Shown: positions 106 through 35,728 of the stretch, in pieces | Numbering within the stretch: position 1 is the first letter of the stretch | Layout: each line of letters begins with the position of its first letter | Source of the DNA: an uncultured Caryophanales bacterium | GTDB taxonomy: Bacteria > Bacillota_I > Bacilli_A > RFN20 > CAG-826 | Assembly (NCBI GenBank): GCA_946612115.1 | Contig: CAMOEI010000010.1 | Span: forward strand, 1-35,728 | Direction of reading: 5' to 3' | Length of the DNA stretch: 35,728 nucleotides | Translations under genes and position numbers: made by a program | The notes under the pieces: model-generated | What the model was told of the DNA's origin: nothing | The model's database searches: none | What the model saw: the letters and a program-made list of their open reading frames with translations, nothing else

Positions 106-2289
106 TTATGCGTTAGCTGGAACAACCTTAACGAATTGTCCACCGGTGTCAATTTGATAGACATTTCTTGCTGGTTTGCTACCACTTGCTTCTTGATAGA
201 AGTTAGTGACGTGTCCTCTAATCATAACTTGAGCACCAACGACAACTGTCTTTGATTGAGCTTCAGTTAATTTAAATCTATAAGCACCAAATGTTTCTTC
301 TCCAGCAGTGTATGTGATAGACATATTCTTGTATTGAGAAGAGAAAGCGGAATCAATCTTTTTAACAACACCGAGAACACAATATTCGTATTCAGTGACT
401 TCATTGTTATCAAGAGCTTTTGCCAAAGCAAGAGCTTCTTCGGCGGTTAATGGATTTTCTTCACTACCTTTTGGAGCAGTAGCAGAAACATGGAGTTGGT
501 AAACTTTTTCAAATGCACCAGCACTAACTGTTAATGTTGTATTTCCTTCAGCAACACCGGTAATCTTCTTACTTGTTGCATCGTAAGTAGCAACTTCACT
601 ATCAGCAATAACAATAGAAACAGCTTGGTTGTTTCCTTCTGGATATGCTTTTCCAGAAATAGCAACAGCGTTATCTTCTCCTGGTTTGACATAAATTTCA
701 TCGTGGAAAATGCCATCGCATTCAACATCGACGAATGTGATATCAGTATTTGTAAGGCTAATGACAGTGCCGTCGCCTTGAATGTTTTCAACTGTATTGC
801 CGAAAGCATTCATGATACGGCAGCTCATTTCAATCATAGCGCCTTTAACTAATTTAGCAGCTTCTTCTTCAGTAAATGTGACTCTATAGAATTCGAATTC
901 TTTTTCAAGTCCTAAATAACCAGTCGCATTCTTATATTGAGAAGTCCATGCTTCAGAAACTTCGAAAACTATATCTCTAACATAGTAAACAATATCAGAA
1001 GCAACGATAGTACTTGGTGGGGTAGAACGTGCTAATTTAGATCCAACGGCTTTGATTTGTTTTGCAGTCATTGGATGATCAGCATCTTCACCAATAACAT
1101 CTTCTTCTTGGACGTAAATGTGAATACTACCAGTAACTTTTCTTGTACCGATTGTTAAGTTAGCAACAACGTTTGTATCACCAACTGCATCAGCGTGAAC
1201 AACACCTGCTGTACAAGTAGCAATACCTGCTGTTGTATATGTGTAAGAGATTGTACCAGTTACAGGTGCGGTAGTTGGATAAGTTTGAACTTCAGCGTCG
1301 TAATCAGTGTCAAGTTTAACTGTCTTAGCAGCAACATTAAATCTAATTAATCTAACTTCTGTGCTATCAACAGCGATTGCCTTATGTTCTGTATCTTTAT
1401 CGCTTGTAAAGTCTTCAATTTCTCTATCGTTATAGTTAATAATCTTACATTTATAAGTAATGTATGATCCTAAAACGATTGGGTTAGAGGCTTGTGATGC
1501 TTTTGGCCAAACACAACGATAGGCTAAGAATTCTTTATTTTCACCTAAATAGCAACCTAAGTTTTCATAACCTTCGTCATAAGCAGAAGTGATTTCGCTA
1601 ACAACATCACGGATGTAGTAGTAATACTCAGTTGGATAAGAACCAGATTGAGTACTAGGTGTTAAGTTTTGTCCGATTGCCTTTGCTTCAGCAGCGGTAA
1701 TTGGATCAGATTCAACTGTACCTTTACTGTGTCTTTGAACTGACACTGTTTCACGGAAGATTTCTTCTCCAGCTTCTTTAGCAATAAGAGTGACTTGTCC
1801 AACATATCCGAGTTCAAATGTGACGAATTTGCCAGAAATAGTAACGTGAGCCAAGCTTTCGGCGGCTGGAGATAAAGTAATTCCAGTCATTGGGTCAGTA
1901 CCATCACATAAGACGAATTCAGCGGTCATGCCGTCTCTTAGGAAGGCTTCGTTATAAACGAAGTGAACTCTAGTTCTTAAGGTTGCACTTAATGTGACAT
2001 TCTTACTAGGCATTTTGAATGAATATGAATCACCAACGAGTTCCACTGTCGTTTCATCATATTTCACATCTTTAACTTCGTAGTTGACTTTGTCGGTAGC
2101 AGCAACCTTAAAGGTAACGGTTTCTCCAGCCTTATAGCCAGCTGCGTTAACACCTGAAATTGTGTAGGCGGTGCTTTCTTCATAATTGACCTTATAGATT
2201 TTTGGGGCTTCAGATTTACAACCTGCTAAGCCTGCGCCCATAAGGACCAATGAAAGAGTTAAGGCACCAAATTTAAATCCTTTTTTCAT
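106..2289 (-). CDS. Secreted lipoprotein with three OB-fold-like repeats and Ig-like domains
   Basis: This is a 727-residue predicted lipoprotein of unknown exact function. I chose the ATG at 2289 because GGAGG lies just upstream and a signal peptide follows at once, ending in a lipobox (LAGC, Cys24). An upstream in-frame TTG lacks this logic. Residues about 35-105 resemble an InlB B-repeat-like module, ending in the typical FKMPSKNVTLSATL pattern. Three repeats follow, near residues 195-290, 405-495 and 610-720. Each starts with a TAxEA-type helix, then a Y.V..VV.EI..A strand, a Y.N...YL turn and an AYR strand. They look like the small OB-fold domains found with secreted nucleases such as Bacillus YhcR. 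Ig-like (Big_2-type) segments lie near 320-395 and 530-602. It is the last gene of the operon, 16 bases after the small membrane protein. I infer nucleic-acid or ligand binding at the cell surface; no catalytic motif is visible. Confidence 0.8.
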   Translation of the reverse strand: MKKGFKFGALTLSLVLMGAGLAGCKSEAPKIYKVNYEESTAYTISGVNAAGYKAGETVTFKVAATDKVNYEVKDVKYDETTVELVGDSYSFKMPSKNVTLSATLRTRVHFVYNEAFLRDGMTAEFVLCDGTDPMTGITLSPAAESLAHVTISGKFVTFELGYVGQVTLIAKEAGEEIFRETVSVQRHSKGTVESDPITAAEAKAIGQNLTPSTQSGSYPTEYYYYIRDVVSEITSAYDEGYENLGCYLGENKEFLAYRCVWPKASQASNPIVLGSYITYKCKIINYNDREIEDFTSDKDTEHKAIAVDSTEVRLIRFNVAAKTVKLDTDYDAEVQTYPTTAPVTGTISYTYTTAGIATCTAGVVHADAVGDTNVVANLTIGTRKVTGSIHIYVQEEDVIGEDADHPMTAKQIKAVGSKLARSTPPSTIVASDIVYYVRDIVFEVSEAWTSQYKNATGYLGLEKEFEFYRVTFTEEEAAKLVKGAMIEMSCRIMNAFGNTVENIQGDGTVISLTNTDITFVDVECDGIFHDEIYVKPGEDNAVAISGKAYPEGNNQAVSIVIADSEVATYDATSKKITGVAEGNTTLTVSAGAFEKVYQLHVSATAPKGSEENPLTAEEALALAKALDNNEVTEYEYCVLGVVKKIDSAFSSQYKNMSITYTAGEETFGAYRFKLTEAQSKTVVVGAQVMIRGHVTNFYQEASGSKPARNVYQIDTGGQFVKVVPANA

Positions 2290-2305
2290 TTTATAACCTC
2301 CGGAT

Positions 2306-2692
2306 TTACATTTCTTTTGCCATGAGGTCACGTTTAACAACAGCAACCTCAATAATTTCTTGTTTTAATTGTCTTCTTACTCCAAAGGCGATGAAAAATC
2401 TCACTAAGCCAATGGATAAGAGAATAACAGCAGCCCCAAAACAGACCATTGAAACAATGAACTGTAATGAGCCAGTATCAATTCCTGCCATTTGGTTATA
2501 TCTTCTAACAAATGACAAGATAAGGAATAAAATTCCACAAATAAGGGTAATAGCCCCAATCATTACTAAACAAAGAGCGTTTTGCTGTTTGTCGTATTGA
2601 CGGGTATCTTCTTGGTGGTCGTCTCTACTAATTTGAGAGAGTTCTTCATATGACAAAGCTTTGTAATCTTTTTTTACTACTTCTTTTGCCAT
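2306..2692 (-). CDS. Small two-helix membrane protein, unknown function
   Basis: The product is 128 residues. The ATG at 2692 is preferred: GGAGG sits 9 bases upstream, inside the end of the SNase gene, while an in-frame TTG at 2701 touches the GGAGG directly. The ATG begins one base after the upstream stop codon, so translation is probably coupled. The protein has a charged N-terminal segment (about residues 1-38) and two hydrophobic helices (about 41-63 and 77-107). These are joined by a short loop with RRYNQ, and a basic C-terminal tail follows. The shape suggests both ends in the cytoplasm. I do not recognise the family. Its place between two secreted lipoproteins of the transporter operon suggests an accessory membrane subunit, but that rests only on position. 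Confidence 0.7.
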   Translation of the reverse strand: MAKEVVKKDYKALSYEELSQISRDDHQEDTRQYDKQQNALCLVMIGAITLICGILFLILSFVRRYNQMAGIDTGSLQFIVSMVCFGAAVILLSIGLVRFFIAFGVRRQLKQEIIEVAVVKRDLMAKEM

Positions 2693-2693
2693 A

Positions 2694-4967
2694 TTATTCA
2701 ACCTCCGAGAGAGTGAATTCAGTGTAGTATGCTGTACAAATAGTCGCAGTCATCTTTCTTTTACCACTTGTGGATTCATAACCAGTAGACATACAAATAA
2801 TGCCGTGGTTCTTCACAGTATCTTTTTTGATACATTTTCTGCTACTAGCAACTTCGTAAGCAATGAATAATTCCTTGAATGATTCTAAATCATAGTCAGG
2901 TAATTTTTGTTGCCAGGTCTTACTTTCTGGATCGCTAGGATCAGAAGGGGATGTCCATAATGTTTCACGATCTGCTTCACTCACTGTACTAGCAAATGTC
3001 GCGCTAGCAAATTGAGCGCCTTTATCGTTATACCAATAACTTCCACCAACGAAGAATCTATAAGAGTAAGATGTTTTGCCATCGTAAGATACTAAGACGT
3101 TTTCATCAACTTTGAATCTGATAAGAGCGCTACTATATCTATTTCCATCAACTGTCTCTTTGACTTTGACTGATGGATCAGCACTACTTGGAGCATTATC
3201 GAGATCTGCACCATTATCTTCACCAAAGGTGGCGTAGAAGAATGGAGCGTTACTTGTGTTATAAAATTTATAGAATAAATTATATTTATTAACTTCTTGA
3301 GATCCACCTTCAGCGATTGAGCCAGTAACTCCATCATAAGTAGACTCAAAATCGTAGAAATATAAATCATCAACGATATCGACTAAAACGCTTGGTAAGC
3401 GGTAAGTGTTGAAATCAGCACCAGTCATCTTAACTGGAGTGACATATTTATCACTTTCAAGAATACGTGTATCACGTTTTAAATTTGGTCTAATTGTATT
3501 GAAGTTAATACCTTGAATTTGTAAAGTTCCACCATATTCACTTAACGCACCGATAACCACGACATGGTCACCTGGGCGAATAAGTGTTTGAGAGAAGGTA
3601 AAGACATAAATACCAACGGCCTTATGATTTTTCCATTCCTCTTTGGTGTAAGTTTGTTTTTCTTGCATATAGAAGGAAGTTCCAACCATTCTTGAAACAT
3701 AACCCTCAATTTTAAATAGAGTTCTTCTATTAGCTAGGCTAGATGTAGAAGCTTTGTAATATAATGGGTCATCATTATCAACTTCTAAATCTTCATAAAT
3801 TTCGGTTAATGTCGCAGAACGGATTTTAACGTCATCTCTTTCATAGTAATAATAGTTATTATCATCCATATCGGAGAACATATGACGTTTATTAGCTTCA
3901 GCAGAAGCTCCTGCGCCCGCTAACATTTTATACATATATAAGGAAGTATCAGTTTTACTTCCAATGCCACTACTGAATCCTTGATAAACCATTTCAAGGT
4001 TTAAGCAGCGGAATGTATCTTTTGTTGGGTTTTTAGCAGTGGAATACCAAACATACGCTAAGTTACGTTGGTTACCATCTGTTGTGGCGTGATATTTACC
4101 TTCTTTTGTTGTGCCTTTATTTAAATCAGCAATTTTGACATTTTCTTCGCCAGCTTTAGTGATTTCTTGGCTCATCAAAATAATGCTTGTCGCACCAGCT
4201 TGAACACCAGTGAAGTCTGTGGTTTGTCTAATAGCTTGTTTATATTCATCATGACCACTATAAATATATTTAGAGTAGTTAGATGCAGTTAGACCCCACT
4301 CTTCAATTTCTGAAGTTGATTCAGGTGTATCAATAGATAAATATCTAATTTTAACTGTGTATTTTAAGTTGAATGTTTCTACGTGAGTGGTATCTCCATC
4401 AACATAGTTGATAAAGACACTATTTTTTCCAGTCGTTGGATATTCTTTCTTTGTGTCTCCATCATAATAATTAGGAGCGCGAACTTGTTCGATTCCAGAC
4501 TTACGGAAATCAACATCAGTGTCATCAGCGAAGACTTCTTTTCCATCAGTCTTCTTTTTGCTCATAATCTCGTTAAAGACATCATTGCTAATAGGAATCT
4601 TACAAATATCAACCCAGTCGACATCTTTATCGACAGAATATGTACCCGCAATAACGTTTTTGCCAGGAACGATGGTAGTCTTATAAACAGCACTACCATC
4701 ATCATTTTTCCTGACTAATTTACATGGTTTGTTATTGTTAGTGACGTCCTTAATTGAATAATGCTCTTCTGGAGTGGCCTTAAAGGTTAAGGTTTGTCCA
4801 CTTTTGACATTATCAGGATCGGCTAATGAGAAATCAGAAAGTTTTCCAAAGATGGAATCCGCAGTCATATCTTCATAGTAAGCCTCTTGACCGTCTGTAG
4901 ATTTACATCCGGTAAGACTACCTAAAGCAAGAAGAGATAACGTTGCTGAAATTAAGAATTTTTTCAT
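2694..4967 (-). CDS. Secreted staphylococcal-nuclease-type lipoprotein with OB-fold domain
   Basis: This 757-residue lipoprotein is probably a surface DNase/RNase. The signal peptide ends in the lipobox LTGC (Cys21), and AGGAG lies 7 bases before the ATG. An InlB-like segment covers about residues 50-115. The nuclease core begins with DGDT (190-193) and KIRYLSIDTPES (206-217), followed by DGNQRNLAYVW (297-307). Aligned with staphylococcal nuclease, these supply the catalytic Arg35, Glu43 and Arg87 equivalents as Arg208, Glu216 and Arg301, with Asp213 and Thr214 as metal ligands. All key residues are therefore intact, although the loop between them is longer than usual. Residues about 413-490 form a YhcR-type OB-fold (FKIEGYVSRM ... 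GDHVVVIG). The C-terminal 250 residues are unassigned. The gene follows the solute-binding protein gene by 17 bases in an ABC transporter operon, which suggests that it feeds substrate to the transporter. Confidence 0.88.
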   Translation of the reverse strand: MKKFLISATLSLLALGSLTGCKSTDGQEAYYEDMTADSIFGKLSDFSLADPDNVKSGQTLTFKATPEEHYSIKDVTNNNKPCKLVRKNDDGSAVYKTTIVPGKNVIAGTYSVDKDVDWVDICKIPISNDVFNEIMSKKKTDGKEVFADDTDVDFRKSGIEQVRAPNYYDGDTKKEYPTTGKNSVFINYVDGDTTHVETFNLKYTVKIRYLSIDTPESTSEIEEWGLTASNYSKYIYSGHDEYKQAIRQTTDFTGVQAGATSIILMSQEITKAGEENVKIADLNKGTTKEGKYHATTDGNQRNLAYVWYSTAKNPTKDTFRCLNLEMVYQGFSSGIGSKTDTSLYMYKMLAGAGASAEANKRHMFSDMDDNNYYYYERDDVKIRSATLTEIYEDLEVDNDDPLYYKASTSSLANRRTLFKIEGYVSRMVGTSFYMQEKQTYTKEEWKNHKAVGIYVFTFSQTLIRPGDHVVVIGALSEYGGTLQIQGINFNTIRPNLKRDTRILESDKYVTPVKMTGADFNTYRLPSVLVDIVDDLYFYDFESTYDGVTGSIAEGGSQEVNKYNLFYKFYNTSNAPFFYATFGEDNGADLDNAPSSADPSVKVKETVDGNRYSSALIRFKVDENVLVSYDGKTSYSYRFFVGGSYWYNDKGAQFASATFASTVSEADRETLWTSPSDPSDPESKTWQQKLPDYDLESFKELFIAYEVASSRKCIKKDTVKNHGIICMSTGYESTSGKRKMTATICTAYYTEFTLSEVE

Positions 4968-30881: not shown

Positions 30882-31370
30882 TTATTTTGCATCCGCAACA
30901 GCCTTTACAGTGCAGGCAAATTGACGGACTGGTGCTTGTAAGCACGATAATAACATGGATATGAGACCTTCTCTTCCAGGCATCTTTGAGATTTCTTTAA
31001 CGCCGTTAGCGTCAACGAATTTTCCTTCAAAGATTCCACCTTTGATGGTTAAGTTGTCTCCAAATCTTTTTGCGTATTTAACAAGCACTTTGGCCCCGGT
31101 GTTGATTTCTGTTGAGAAGAACACAGCGTTTGGTCCAGATAAGACTTGTTTTAAATCTTGATAATTAAGTTCATCAGCAGCGCGTTCAACGAGTGAGTTC
31201 TTATAAACATTCATAGAAGCGTTTTCTGCTCTTAAGGCTCTTCTTAATTCTTGGATTTGAGCAACAGTGAGACCACGATACTCCGCAACAATTAAGGCTT
31301 GAGACTCTTTAGCTTTGCTAACGATTTCATTAACAGATTCTTGTTTAGCTAATAAGACATCCTTATTCAT
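30882..31370 (-). CDS. rplJ: Ribosomal protein L10
   Basis: The 162-residue product anchors L7/L12 dimers to 23S rRNA. The start is the ATG at 31370 (MNKDVLLAKQESVNEI), with AAGGAGG 7-8 bases upstream; an earlier in-frame start lies before that site. The conserved ALIVAEYRGLTVAQIQELRR segment is present. A structured leader that matches the L10-leader type lies just upstream, so autogenous repression by the L10-L12 complex is expected. Confidence 0.96.
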   Translation of the reverse strand: MNKDVLLAKQESVNEIVSKAKESQALIVAEYRGLTVAQIQELRRALRAENASMNVYKNSLVERAADELNYQDLKQVLSGPNAVFFSTEINTGAKVLVKYAKRFGDNLTIKGGIFEGKFVDANGVKEISKMPGREGLISMLLSCLQAPVRQFACTVKAVADAK

Positions 31371-31411
31371 GTTTGACCTCCTTTTCAATTTGATTTTTTG
31401 TTTGAGGCTCC

Positions 31412-31502
31412 AATATACAGTGAGAATGAAATGATGATATTTCTATTTCTTCACCTCGGTAACATTATTAAGACCCATGTCCGTTACTGTCTTAGGTATA
31501 TT
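31412..31502 (-). ncRNA. L10 ribosomal protein leader
   Basis: In the rplA-rplJ gap the minus strand shows the layout of the Bacillota L10 leader. A closing helix pairs AATATAC...CAGT with ACTGTATATT, with a 6-base bulge CTAAGA. Inside is a GTAAC / GTTAC arm followed by CCGAGGTGAAG, the conserved CCGAGG element next to the kink-turn. L10-L12 binding to such leaders lowers expression of rplJ-rplL in Bacillus. I judged it by pattern, not by covariance search. Confidence 0.75.
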
Positions 31503-31516
31503 AGAATCTAGTTTGA

Positions 31517-32197: not shown

Positions 32198-32208
32198 AGT
32201 TCCCTCCA

Positions 32209-32622
32209 TTAGTCGTCGATGACGATTCCCATATTACGAGCACTACCTTCAACGATTTTCATAGCCGCTTCAATGTCATTAGCGTTTAAATCAGGTAATT
32301 TGTACTCAGCGATTTGCTTGAGTTGTGCTCTTGTAATGTGTCCGACAGTTTGTTTAACACCTGTAGCGGAACCTTTTTGGATACCAGCAGCTTTAAGAAG
32401 TAATGGAGCAACTGGAGATGTTTTGATGACAAAATCACAAGATTTGTCTTCATAAGCCGTAATGATGACTGGGACGATTTCCCCACGACGATCAGCAGTC
32501 TTAGCATTGAAGTCGGTACAGAACTTCGCCATGTTAATACCAGCAGATGCGAGTTTTGGTCCTGGTTTAGCTTCGCCACCAGGAAGTTCCATCTTTAAGA
32601 CTTTCGCGATTTTTTTACTCAC
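32209..32622 (-). CDS. rplK: Ribosomal protein L11
   Basis: The 137-residue product is part of the GTPase-associated centre. The C-terminal RNA-binding domain is normal (GHITRAQLKQIAEYKLPDLN, GSARNMGIVI). In the N-terminal domain the usual NPxPPVGPALGQxGVN loop reads KPGPKLASAGIN: four residues are missing and the Pro-rich VGPALGQ core is lost (positions 18-30). This loop is the thiostrepton and EF-G contact surface. GGAGG precedes the ATG. The gene starts the L11-L1-L10-L12-rpoBC cluster; nusG, usually adjacent, is separated from it by ktrBA. Confidence 0.95.
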   Translation of the reverse strand: MSKKIAKVLKMELPGGEAKPGPKLASAGINMAKFCTDFNAKTADRRGEIVPVIITAYEDKSCDFVIKTSPVAPLLLKAAGIQKGSATGVKQTVGHITRAQLKQIAEYKLPDLNANDIEAAMKIVEGSARNMGIVIDD

Positions 32623-32656
32623 GTGACTTTCCCTCCTATATTAAGATTTGTCCGTG

Positions 32657-32689
32657 CTGTGGTACGGGTGAATCACCACTCTTCCACAG
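32657..32689 (-). promoter_or_regulatory. Candidate L1-binding hairpin in the rplK leader
   Basis: On the minus strand the outer stem CTGTGG / CCACAG closes an asymmetric loop containing AAGAG and an inner GGTG-ATT-CACC hairpin. The pattern GTGG-AAG ... GGTGA ... TACCAC resembles the L1-binding part of 23S rRNA (GTGGGAG ... GGTGA ... TACCAC). It lies about 20 bases before the rplK Shine-Dalgarno. I infer translational autoregulation of rplK-rplA by L1. Confidence 0.5.
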
Positions 32690-32696
32690 AACTAAT

Positions 32697-32736
32697 CATG
32701 TGTATTACGTACTCTCGTATACGTAAAGGCAACATG
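32697..32736 (-). other. Stem-loop in the rplK 5' UTR
   Basis: Perfect 7-bp stem TTACGTA / TACGTAA with an 8-base loop, extended by an outer CATGT / ACATG pairing. It lies just downstream of the predicted transcription start. No T-run follows, so it is a structural leader element and not a terminator. Confidence 0.45.
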
Positions 32737-32743
32737 CTTGTAT

Positions 32744-32773
32744 ATCGTATCAAAATGACACATGCGGACGCAA
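32744..32773 (-). promoter_or_regulatory. Promoter of the rplK-rplA cluster
   Basis: On the minus strand an extended -10 (TGA-TACGAT, hexamer at 32744-32749) lies 18 bases after TTGCGT (32768-32773). The predicted leader is about 115 bases and carries two stem-loops. Confidence 0.5.
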
Positions 32774-33222
32774 GCAAAAATTTATTTTTTTTCTTTAATC
32801 AAGTAAACAAAGAATAAAATATCAAGACATTATTAATAAATTAATAAAAACCCAAAGTTATTCCATAAAAATTCCTCGATATCATTTGAGAACAATCGCA
32901 AGAAAAAAGTTACTGTCTATAAATGAAGAAAAATCAAAAAAAAGATAAACGTTTTTAGGTGGAGAAATGTGGGCAATAATTGTTTATGGATTTTAATATT
33001 TTTCTAACCTCTTTTATTATATAATTCGTGTAGATTACATTGTAAAAGATATATTATAAATAACCTATATATTGATAATACCTTTATGGGAATTTTATTA
33101 GATTTTATTACGATATTTTTCTCTAACTGATTAATGAAATATTCTTACTGAGCATAACAAAATATTAATGCTATTTATTGCTCAATAAATATTTATATTT
33201 GAGGTACAATAACTATACTAAT
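32774..33222. other. AT-rich divergent intergenic region without a recognised gene
   Basis: This stretch of about 450 bases lies between the rplK and ktrB promoters. It is very AT-rich, with many short stops in all frames and no Shine-Dalgarno-led frame that I can support. A loose inverted repeat TGAGCA / TGCTCA spans about 33149-33183. I see no RNA gene, insertion sequence or terminator in it. Confidence 0.5.
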
Positions 33223-33250
33223 TTGCTTTTTATCGCGATAAGAGTATAAT
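33223..33250 (+). promoter_or_regulatory. ktrB-ktrA promoter
   Basis: TTGCTT (33223-33228) and a perfect TATAAT (33245-33250) with a 16-base spacer. The start is expected near 33257, only about 7 bases before the ktrB ATG, so the mRNA would be nearly leaderless. There is no Shine-Dalgarno sequence before ktrB. Confidence 0.7.
33230..33241. promoter_or_regulatory. Perfect 12-bp palindrome in the ktrB promoter spacer
   Basis: TTATCGCGATAA is fully self-complementary and sits between the -35 and -10 hexamers, where a bound repressor would block polymerase. The TCGCGA core stands out in a region otherwise made almost only of A and T. The binding protein is unknown. Confidence 0.5.
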
Positions 33251-33263
33251 ACAAACAGTCTAT

Positions 33264-34658
33264 ATGGCAAAATCACAAACCAAAAAACGTAAATTATCAC
33301 CTTACTTATTGGTACTTCTCTCCTTTGCTGGAGTCATACTTTTAGGTTCATTTTTATTAACACTTCCTTTAGCACATAAAAATGGTCTATGGGGTTCATA
33401 TTTGGATTCATTATTCATTTCTACCTCCGCTACTTGTGTGACTGGCTTATCAACTTATGCTTCTGGACTAGAAGGGGAACTTACATATTTTGGTCAGGCT
33501 GTTGTCCTTGTGATGATTCAAATTGGTGGTCTTGGTTTTATTACCATCTTCACCTTCATCATTTCCTTGTTTGCCAAAAAGCTACAATTCAAGGATCGTT
33601 TATTCCTTTCTCAGGCTGTGAATAGTAACACAATAGCTGGGGTTTCAAAGTTTGTTAAAAGAGTTATTGTTATCGTTTTAACCGCTGAAACATTAGGTTT
33701 CTTATTAGGTTTACCAGTGTTTTTGAATGTCTCTCAATACTCAACCGGAAAAGCAATTTGGGTCTCTTTATTCACCTCAGTGTCTGCATTTAATAATGCA
33801 GGATTTGACTTATTTGGCAGTTTATCGCTTATAAGAATGGCGGAAAACCCAATCGTTTATGGTCTTCCTACATGGGCGTATTATTATTTATGTTCTTATA
33901 TAATGGTCCTCATCGTTATTGGTGGTATCTCTTTTATCACTATTATCGACTTGGTGATTTTACGAAAGAAACCAAATCAATGGAGTGCCTTTGTTAGAAT
34001 CGTTTTAATTACTACAAGTGTCTTATTAGTCTTTGGTTTTGTGATGTTTGTCCTTACTGATGTCACCACTAATCACATCAACTTCTTTGAAGCAGCGTTC
34101 CAAAGTGTCACTTTAAGAACTGCTGGCTTTGCAACTTTTGATCAGAATAATCTCAGTAGCGCTGGTAAAGCTGTCAGCTGTCTATTGATGTTTATAGGTG
34201 GATCACCAATCTCCACCGCTGGTGGTATTAAAACCACCACCATCTTTGTTATCGTCTTATGCTTAGTAAGATTCTTACAAAGAAAAGGAATCTATGCTTT
34301 CAACCGTGAATACACCAAATCAAGTATTCTTAAGGCCACAAGCTTAGTGTTCTTATCAATATTTTTCATCGTCATTGCCTTCTTATCCATTATGGCTATT
34401 GAACAACACTGTCAAAATCCAAATGAACTCATTACATCCGAGAACGTCTTCTTTGAAGTCTTCTCAGCGTTCGGTACAGTTGGAGTTACCGCAGGTATTA
34501 CTTCTACATTGAATGTAGGCAGTAAGGTTATCATTATTGCCCTAATGTTCTTTGGAAGACTCGGTCCAATTACCTTGTTCCAATTATTCCAAGGTGATAT
34601 GGATAGAGAAGAAAGTGTTCATTTTAAACGTGTACAAACCGATGTTATCGTTGGTTAA
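33264..34658 (+). CDS. ktrB: Potassium uptake channel subunit KtrB (TrkH/KtrB family)
   Basis: The 464-residue membrane protein carries K+ (Na+-assisted in studied members). It has the four-fold M1-P-M2 layout. The filter loops are seen as SATCVTGLS, SAFNNAGFD, TLRTAGFAT and SAFGTVGVTAG, each with the key Gly. The flexible intramembrane gate loop GGSPISTAGGIKTTT between repeats 3 and 4 is present. The C-terminus is short and ends near KRVQTDVIVG. The start MAKSQTKKRKLSPYLL is favoured by the promoter position, although no Shine-Dalgarno precedes it. It forms a pair with ktrA, 15 bases downstream. The two genes lie between nusG and rplK and point the opposite way to both. Confidence 0.93.
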   Translation: MAKSQTKKRKLSPYLLVLLSFAGVILLGSFLLTLPLAHKNGLWGSYLDSLFISTSATCVTGLSTYASGLEGELTYFGQAVVLVMIQIGGLGFITIFTFIISLFAKKLQFKDRLFLSQAVNSNTIAGVSKFVKRVIVIVLTAETLGFLLGLPVFLNVSQYSTGKAIWVSLFTSVSAFNNAGFDLFGSLSLIRMAENPIVYGLPTWAYYYLCSYIMVLIVIGGISFITIIDLVILRKKPNQWSAFVRIVLITTSVLLVFGFVMFVLTDVTTNHINFFEAAFQSVTLRTAGFATFDQNNLSSAGKAVSCLLMFIGGSPISTAGGIKTTTIFVIVLCLVRFLQRKGIYAFNREYTKSSILKATSLVFLSIFFIVIAFLSIMAIEQHCQNPNELITSENVFFEVFSAFGTVGVTAGITSTLNVGSKVIIIALMFFGRLGPITLFQLFQGDMDREESVHFKRVQTDVIVG

Positions 34659-34673
34659 TAGGAGGAAATCTAT

Positions 34674-35348
34674 ATGGCACACAAATCATTTGCAGTTATC
34701 GGCTTAGGTCAATTCGGTCGATCCATCGTTAAAGAATTATCAGAAAACGGGATGGACGTTATCGCGATTGACAATAACGAAGAAGTCGCTAAAGAAGTCG
34801 CTAACGATTTACCAACAACATTTATTGCTGACTCCACTGATGAAAAAGCTCTTAAAGAGCTTGGAATTAGTGATGTTGATGCGGCAATCGTTGCTTTTGG
34901 TGATAATCAAGAAGCGAGCGTTCTTACCACCGTTATTTTAAGAGAGTTAGGTGTTAAAAATATCGTTGTTCGTGTTGACGATGATTATTATGTTCCAATT
35001 ATGAAAAAACTCGGTGCTACTGAAGTAATTACTCCTCAAAAAGCTGCTGGTGCTGCTTTGGCTAACCGTATCGGTAACGATGATTACACTGACTTCTATC
35101 GTTTAGATAGCAAATATTCAGTAGTCTCCATTATCATTAACCCTGGTTTCTTCCCAGTTACCTTAAAAGAAATGAATCCTAAAAATGTTTATGGCGTTAA
35201 TGTTGTCTTAATTAGAAGAGGTTCAAGATCTTTCGTTCCTGGTGGTAATGATTCACTTTTACCAGACGATACTGTCTACGTTGTAGGAACTTCTAAGGAA
35301 GTTGCTTCATTTAGAGAAGCGATTAACGGTAAGATTAAAAAGAAATAG
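34674..35348 (+). CDS. ktrA: Potassium uptake regulatory subunit KtrA (RCK protein)
   Basis: The 224-residue cytoplasmic protein forms the octameric ring that gates KtrB. The N-terminal RCK/Rossmann domain shows AVIGLGQFGRSIVKEL (GxGxxG at about residues 10-15) and VIAIDNNEE, where the acidic residue binds the adenosine ribose. In studied members this domain binds ATP or ADP. The C-terminal RCK_C domain (about 140-220) includes PDDTVYVVGTSKEV; in Firmicutes this domain can bind c-di-AMP. Here no c-di-AMP riboswitch is present upstream of the operon, so control may be at the protein or promoter level. AGGAGG precedes the ATG. Confidence 0.94.
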   Translation: MAHKSFAVIGLGQFGRSIVKELSENGMDVIAIDNNEEVAKEVANDLPTTFIADSTDEKALKELGISDVDAAIVAFGDNQEASVLTTVILRELGVKNIVVRVDDDYYVPIMKKLGATEVITPQKAAGAALANRIGNDDYTDFYRLDSKYSVVSIIINPGFFPVTLKEMNPKNVYGVNVVLIRRGSRSFVPGGNDSLLPDDTVYVVGTSKEVASFREAINGKIKKK

Positions 35349-35368
35349 TTTTATATTTAATATAAAAA

Positions 35369-35389
35369 GCAAACCGTTGAATGGTTTGC
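35369..35389. terminator. Bidirectional terminator between ktrA and nusG
   Basis: Stem GCAAACC / GGTTTGC with a 7-base loop, flanked by AAAAA on the left and TTTTTT on the right, so it works on both strands. It lies between the convergent ends of ktrA (plus) and nusG (minus). Confidence 0.9.
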
Positions 35390-35396
35390 TTTTTTG

Positions 35397-35728
35397 TTAG
35401 ATTTTATCAATTTCTGAGAAATCAACTTCAACTTTAATGGTTTTACCAAAGAAGATGGTTTCAAGTTCGACCGCTCCAGTATCTTTGTTGATGGAGAGGA
35501 TTTTACCTTCGGTTCCTTCAAGAGTGCCGTGGATGACTTTAACATAATCACCTGGTTCATAACGATCATACATGCTTTCATCAACCATGCCCATTCTTTT
35601 AAGAACTGGTTCAATTTGTTCACGTGGCACTGGGAATGGCTTTGTACCTTTACCAGCAGATCCAACGAAGCCAGTAACACCTGGAGTGTTTCTAACAATA
35701 TACCAAGCATAGTCAGTCATAATCATTT
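35397..35728 (-). CDS. nusG: Transcription factor NusG, C-terminal part (cut by window end)
   Basis: Only the last 109 full codons are in the window; the 5' part continues past 35728. The visible sequence starts in the NGN domain (MIMTDYAWYIVRNTPGVTGF, then VGSAGKGTKPFPV) and ends in a complete KOW domain (YEPGDYVKVIHGTLEGTEGK ... VEVDFSEIDKI). NusG binds RNA polymerase and couples elongation to translation or termination. The ATG seen at the edge is internal to the gene, since the NGN core is missing. In most Bacillota nusG is followed directly by rplK; here ktrBA and a terminator intervene. Confidence 0.95.
   Translation of the reverse strand, partial: MIMTDYAWYIVRNTPGVTGFVGSAGKGTKPFPVPREQIEPVLKRMGMVDESMYDRYEPGDYVKVIHGTLEGTEGKILSINKDTGAVELETIFFGKTIKVEVDFSEIDKI

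Follow-up and report, generated by a model that had tools for sequence, protein, structure and literature searches.

In Bacillus subtilis, the genes of the Ktr potassium pump are arranged in the order ktrA-ktrB. According to a publication on their regulation, both the riboswitch and KtrA of this organism respond to c-di-AMP, and its authors allow that an unknown transcription factor may act at ktrAB (PMC5573677). BusR is a c-di-AMP-responsive repressor of the GntR family with an RCK_C domain, whose bipartite motif is separated by 22 bp (PMC8517857). As for transcripts with little or no leader, PMC3160421 reports leaderless genes in 56/209 Firmicutes genomes, averaging 4.2% of the genes in those.

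Like B. subtilis ktrAB (PMC5573677), the locus described here encodes a Ktr pump with an RCK subunit, in a genome with a diadenylate cyclase gene. It differs in that ktrB comes first, there is no riboswitch match and the predicted leader is too short for one. Like the leaderless and near-leaderless bacterial mRNAs of PMC3160421, ktrB has a -10 element within ~15 nt of its ATG and no Shine-Dalgarno (SD) sequence, whereas its predicted leader measures 6–8 nt instead of 0. A text search of a limited collection of papers found no report of a leaderless ktrB.

The ktrBA locus and its promoter

The following features were annotated around ktrB in the window, that is, the whole stretch of 35,728 nt that was analysed:

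32209–32622, minus strand: rplK, divergent neighbour (open reading frame, named by eye; also beside 11 of the 13 relatives' loci viewed)
33223–33228, plus strand: -35 element TTGCTT, read from the sequence (TTG[AC][TC]T in all 19 ktrB promoters from the genus, column identity averaging 0.92)
33230–33241, no strand assigned: TTATCGCGATAA, a perfect palindrome of 12 bp within the spacer (exact; judged probably a chance feature)
33245–33250, plus strand: -10 element TATAAT (19/19 in the genus, 10–14 nt from the ATG)
33251–33258, plus strand: conserved bases after the -10 element, ACAAACAG, in congeners commonly ACAAGCAG (column identity averaging 0.86 across these 8 nt)
33257–33263, plus strand: predicted 5' leader of ~6–8 nt without SD, placed from the position of the -10 element
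33264–34658, plus strand: ktrB, Trk/Ktr potassium-translocating subunit, 464 aa (Pfam TrkH, E = 3.3e-42; TIGR00933, E = 1.4e-75, short of the curated cut-off; relatives)
34660–34665, plus strand: AGGAGG, SD of ktrA, read from the sequence
34674–35348, plus strand: ktrA, regulatory subunit with RCK_N and RCK_C, 224 aa (Pfam TrkA_N and TrkA_C; PDB KtrA and KtrC chains, best E = 5.1e-58)

TTGCTT and TATAAT are 16 nt apart and are followed, after a further 13 nt, by the ktrB ATG at 33264; a transcription start ~7 nt past the -10 element would give ktrB a leader of ~6–8 nt. The letters of this promoter, the missing SD of ktrB and the exact palindrome had all been named in the initial annotation and were recovered in the sequence. 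Its description of ktrB as an exception among the genes of the window also holds: an SD of five or more bases was assigned to 21/26 genes and one of four bases to two, leaving three genes, ktrB included, with none. This tally, from which the partial nusG was excluded, is lenient in that the highest-scoring SD anywhere in the first 30 codons was accepted, and at least one of the 21 assignments is probably spurious (SD 29 codons into the open reading frame).

Of the ktrBA loci viewed in 13 relatives, with genes again identified by eye, 11 have rplK or rplK-rplA as a flank and five have nusG at the opposite end; the remaining loci end early or have other genes beyond ktrA. An arrangement with ktrBA lying in opposite orientation between nusG and rplK (again by eye) is shared by the window (32209–35728) and four of these 13 loci, L010, L012, L017 and L025. 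Another locus of the own genome (G000:C4:96548-100822, within L034) has stretches resembling nusG, ktrA/ktrB and rplK that are 72–88% identical to those of the window (compared with positions 32279–35728). It sits at the end of another contig, and rpoB is single in this genome; the MAG probably includes a mis-binned contig, so that either C4 or the window contig may belong to a related species. Further upstream in the window, an L10 leader (RF00557, 50.3 bits) was detected on the minus strand at 31417–31514, just upstream of an open reading frame at 30882–31388.

The predicted short leader is conserved across the genus

ktrB was found in 18/19 genomes of the genus, giving 19 genes with the two copies of the own genome. 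An order-level search returned a match in 63/117 genomes, and the promoter analysis was confined to the family, where 57 ktrB genes outside the genus brought the total to 76. Entries L108 and L109, which repeat the promoter letters of L002 and L003, were excluded from the 19 and the 76, and a short fragment in G099 (L121) as well as L120, a repeat of the second own-genome copy L034, were left out. Four of 68 ktrB rows were at first omitted as fragments or because they lie at a contig start (G060:C68, G066:C20, G066:C85 and G084:C15); G060:C68 was included later as L155. The start codons of the family table were assigned manually; that of L060 is not a valid start codon.

Across the 19 promoters of the genus, mean column identity reaches 1.0 in the -10 element, 0.92 in the -35 element and 0.86 in the 8 nt after the -10 element, in contrast to 0.60 in the 12 columns of the palindrome and only 0.52 in the 30 nt upstream of the -35 element. 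A TATAAT lies 10–14 nt before the ATG of every one of these genes. Outside the genus, the distance from the -10 element to the ATG is 7–15 nt in 26/57 ktrB genes and 16–35 nt in 22/57, with no -10 element recognised in 9/57; a very short leader is therefore not shared by the whole family.

As a control we used ktrA, which directly follows ktrB: an SD of five or more bases precedes ktrB in 2/19 cases in the genus and 7/57 in the rest of the family (9/76 together), and ktrA in 17/17 and 18/19 (35/36 together), the latter counts covering the 36 of 76 loci with a ktrA start found, since most others had been fetched without downstream DNA. In two members of the genus (L114 and L119), ACAAGGAG replaces ACAAGCAG just after the -10 element; where most congeners have AAGCAG, these two carry AAGGAG, which resembles an SD and overlaps the transcription start as predicted, and the bases after the -10 element could therefore be a worn, ancestral weak SD.

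The near-leaderless class is marked by a -10 element near the start codon and by the lack of an SD; ktrB of the window shows both, as do the genes of the genus apart from two with an SD of five or more bases. The near-leaderless ktrB mRNA predicted in the initial annotation is supported by the conserved -35 element, -10 element and following bases and by the conserved distance to the ATG; it is probably real and found throughout the genus.

The same configuration is seen elsewhere in the genome. In a 235.7-kb sample of the own genome (G000; the window and ten 20-kb stretches), restricted to the first ATG of non-overlapping open reading frames of at least 100 aa, a -10-like hexamer was found 7–15 nt before 18/69 first ATGs with an SD of fewer than four bases, ktrB included. 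The corresponding controls were 10/267 internal ATGs with such an SD (p = 1.5e-7) and 4/105 first ATGs with an SD of four or more bases. A second genome (G082, 184-kb sample) gave 11/51 first ATGs against 10/179 internal ones (p = 0.0014) and 5/94 first ATGs with an SD of four or more bases. As short-leader starts recur in the genome, ktrB is not unique; judged from these counts, they look like a minority class in the genus.

The reading we favour, at a probability of roughly 0.8, is that an ordinary sigma-A promoter would transcribe ktrBA from a start ~6–8 nt before the ktrB ATG, with ktrB and ktrA presumably sharing one transcript. Given such a start, translation of ktrB would begin at a 5' end with almost no leader and no SD, and ktrA would use its normal SD. 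TTATCGCGATAA would be a chance feature, and c-di-AMP control, if any, would most likely act on the RCK_C domain of KtrA, for which binding of the nucleotide is putative.

Possible routes of c-di-AMP control

Searches with Rfam revealed no c-di-AMP riboswitch in the window, and with a lax threshold on positions 32200–33600 they gave nothing but a match to Corona_pk3 under the threshold (E = 1.7), which we took as chance. Among 96 genomes of the family, searched with stricter filters that can lose weak matches, RF00379 was found in three, all of one genus and all on contigs other than those of their ktrB; the own genome and five congeners, the six genus members of this set, had none. Consistent with the initial annotation, which had seen no room for this riboswitch, RF00379 was not found upstream of ktrB. 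One of the three RF00379 loci was read (L068, ~1501–3002): the long open reading frame after the riboswitch looks by eye like a cation/proton antiporter and not like ktrB.

A diadenylate cyclase is encoded in 18/19 genomes of the genus, the own genome included, and the TrkA_C match in KtrA scores 47.4 bits (cut-off 27), so that a KtrA with RCK_C and the cyclase occur together in this genome. Searching six genomes for TrkA_C (PF02080) gave seven matches, in open frames of 225–246 aa that each lie just downstream of ktrB. No BusR-type protein combining an HTH with RCK_C was found in these six genomes, where a divergent RCK_C could be missed. BusR (PMC8517857) would resemble the situation considered here as a route from c-di-AMP to transcription, but it differs in that the arms of the inverted repeat found in the family (see below) are 3–9 nt apart and in that all seven TrkA_C matches of the six genomes are at KtrA; a BusR-like regulator was rejected on the latter ground. 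A regulator gene beside ktrBA was likewise discarded as a candidate after the 13 loci had been viewed, with flanks mostly formed by rplK or rplK-rplA and nusG. Beyond ktrA, locus L022 has an XRE-like HTH gene and L015, from the same genus, a truncated open reading frame.

The missing riboswitch, the diadenylate cyclase and a KtrA bearing RCK_C together make control at the protein level the simplest guess, and a leader too short for a c-di-AMP riboswitch also points to the RCK_C domain of KtrA as the most likely site of any such control. As far as can be judged from the genomes, only the protein route of c-di-AMP control appears to have visible parts here.

An inverted repeat upstream of ktrB in part of the family

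A scan of the ktrB promoters of the family revealed an inverted repeat, CAAATT-N-AATTTG, just upstream of the -35 element. The exact repeat occurs in 11/66 upstream regions of the first set as compared to 0.05 per shuffled set, a comparison that is partly circular because the arms were derived from the same promoters (L155 and L159 excepted). Of 78 entries (76 distinct and two duplicates), scanned with -10 candidates counted only if more than 15 nt from the repeat, 24 have some repeat of this type. In 17/76 promoters (5/19 in the genus and 12/57 outside), the repeat has a core of 15–21 bp and a -10 candidate 29–32 nt from the core end. These promoters belong to genera g1, g30, g14, g28, g11, g16 and g8, with g25 represented through the variant L041.

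Several promoters depart from this pattern. The arms of L007 and L041 are altered symmetrically, to CAGATT/AATCTG and CAAATC/GATTTG, respectively. L011 and L031 have a second -10 candidate further down, and L050 carries a repeat of this type with no -10 element in place. In L040, a better -10 element (TATAAT) lies 17 nt from the repeat and outranks the only candidate at 31 nt, TATTAT. A shorter palindrome, AGCAAATTTGCT, is found 19 nt before the -10 element in L005, L006, L008, L009, L117 and L118.

A search of 224 family genomes for the full architecture (CAAATTN{3,9}AATTTGN{29,32}TATAAT) gave a single match in each of 20 genomes, as compared to three matches of the reversed pattern. Fourteen of the 20 lie beside ktrB (tblastn), L155 and L159 being first seen in that scan and the others known before. 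The bare repeat, with arms 3–6 nt apart, is not rare: nine genomes contain 33 sites, nine of them at ktrB and 24 elsewhere, as compared to eight for the reversed control. Among repeat-bearing loci, the distance to the start of the divergent rplK varies between 180 and 284 nt and the distance to the ktrB -10 element hardly does; the repeat therefore belongs with the ktrB promoter, and its assignment to the rplK promoter was rejected.

The strongest alternative is that, in part of the family, a DNA-binding protein controls ktrB at CAAATT-N3-9-AATTTG and that the window species lost the site or never had it. Enrichment at ktrB, the near-constant spacing to the -10 element and the symmetric changes of the arms speak for such a site; against it stand its presence in only 17/76 promoters, the case of L040 and the many bare copies away from ktrB. 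In the ktrB promoter of the window itself, no such repeat was found within two mismatches. The arm spacing of 3–9 nt, variable even within a genus, speaks against a rigid dimer, and the position just upstream of the -35 element would suit an activator or contact with the RNA polymerase alpha subunit better than a classical repressor. We regard this alternative as conceivable but somewhat doubtful.

A fuller version is put forward more tentatively still. A dedicated, essentially single-gene element might govern ktrBA in part of this rumen/gut lineage, with its proximal arm ~30 nt upstream of the -10 element and a variable arm spacing (core 15–21 bp), replacing the riboswitch before a short-leader mRNA. 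Its reader might be RNA polymerase itself or an activator that responds to potassium or c-di-AMP and whose DNA-binding units are joined flexibly; the clade of the window would lack the element.

Alternatives for the ktrB promoter of the window

A longer transcript from an upstream promoter could be the regulated ktrB mRNA, with the proximal promoter playing a minor part. The ~640 bp between the starts of rplK and ktrB would offer room for such a promoter, but this interval contains no Rfam leader, the 30 nt upstream of the -35 element are poorly conserved in the genus (see above), and in the comparison with L003 the promoter-proximal bases are kept and the region further up diverges. We consider this explanation unlikely and continue to favour a start a few nucleotides before the ktrB ATG.

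The initial annotation had further proposed the spacer palindrome as an operator, to be recognised by its conservation before ktrB in relatives and by copies in other promoters. The two relatives compared most closely, RUG14307 (L002) and RUG042 (L003), are Erysipelotrichaceae MAGs with DNA identities to the window of 94% and 82–83% over aligned stretches. In RUG14307, the closest one, the palindrome reads TTATTGCGATAA, with one substitution that keeps 5/6 pairs; in RUG042 it is gone, and the -10 element and the bases after it are kept. The other 17 promoters of the genus retain at most 3/6 pairs. Without the window, the self-complementarity of the palindrome columns averages 1.83/6 pairs, against a mean of 1.83 (sd 0.23) for shuffles that, unlike the observed mean, took in the window promoter.

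The search for further copies did not yield a regulon either. The own genome of 1.23 Mb has a single copy of TTATCGCGATAA, the one at ktrB. The palindrome is present in 3/19 genomes of the genus, with the copies of the other two inside open reading frames, and an exact copy at ktrB is absent from every other genus genome searched; a regulon of TTATCGCGATAA was rejected on these grounds. One result runs against a chance origin: near matches (up to two mismatches, the exact one counted) number six in the window as compared to 1.95 in shuffles, of which 1/100 reaches six. All five non-exact ones lie inside open reading frames, ktrA holding two. As a palindrome, however, TTATCGCGATAA does not stand out, for the window has 18 perfect ones measuring 12 bp or longer, among them ATAAATATTTAT at 33185. 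Hence, neither conservation in orthologous promoters nor recurrence in a regulon was observed for TTATCGCGATAA, which is probably a chance feature of the own genome.

That a spacer-bound repressor blocks RNA polymerase at ktrB is very improbable: the palindrome sits exactly between the -35 and -10 elements, the closest relative retains most of its pairs and a regulator with a single target would account for the one copy in the genome, but its columns drift while the -35 element, the -10 element and the bases after it are kept. The wider proposal of the initial annotation, a shift of control to a DNA-binding protein, may hold, though on this evidence not at TTATCGCGATAA. As a candidate for promoter-level control of ktrB, the inverted repeat of some relatives appears better than TTATCGCGATAA.

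Implications for Ktr expression in the family

The expression of a potassium importer that a c-di-AMP riboswitch gates in Bacillus seems, in this genome, to start from a promoter that leaves hardly any leader. With so little leader on ktrB, the promoter and the protein would be the only places for any control. For the former, the inverted repeat of some family members offers a concrete, testable handle on ktr transcription without a riboswitch.
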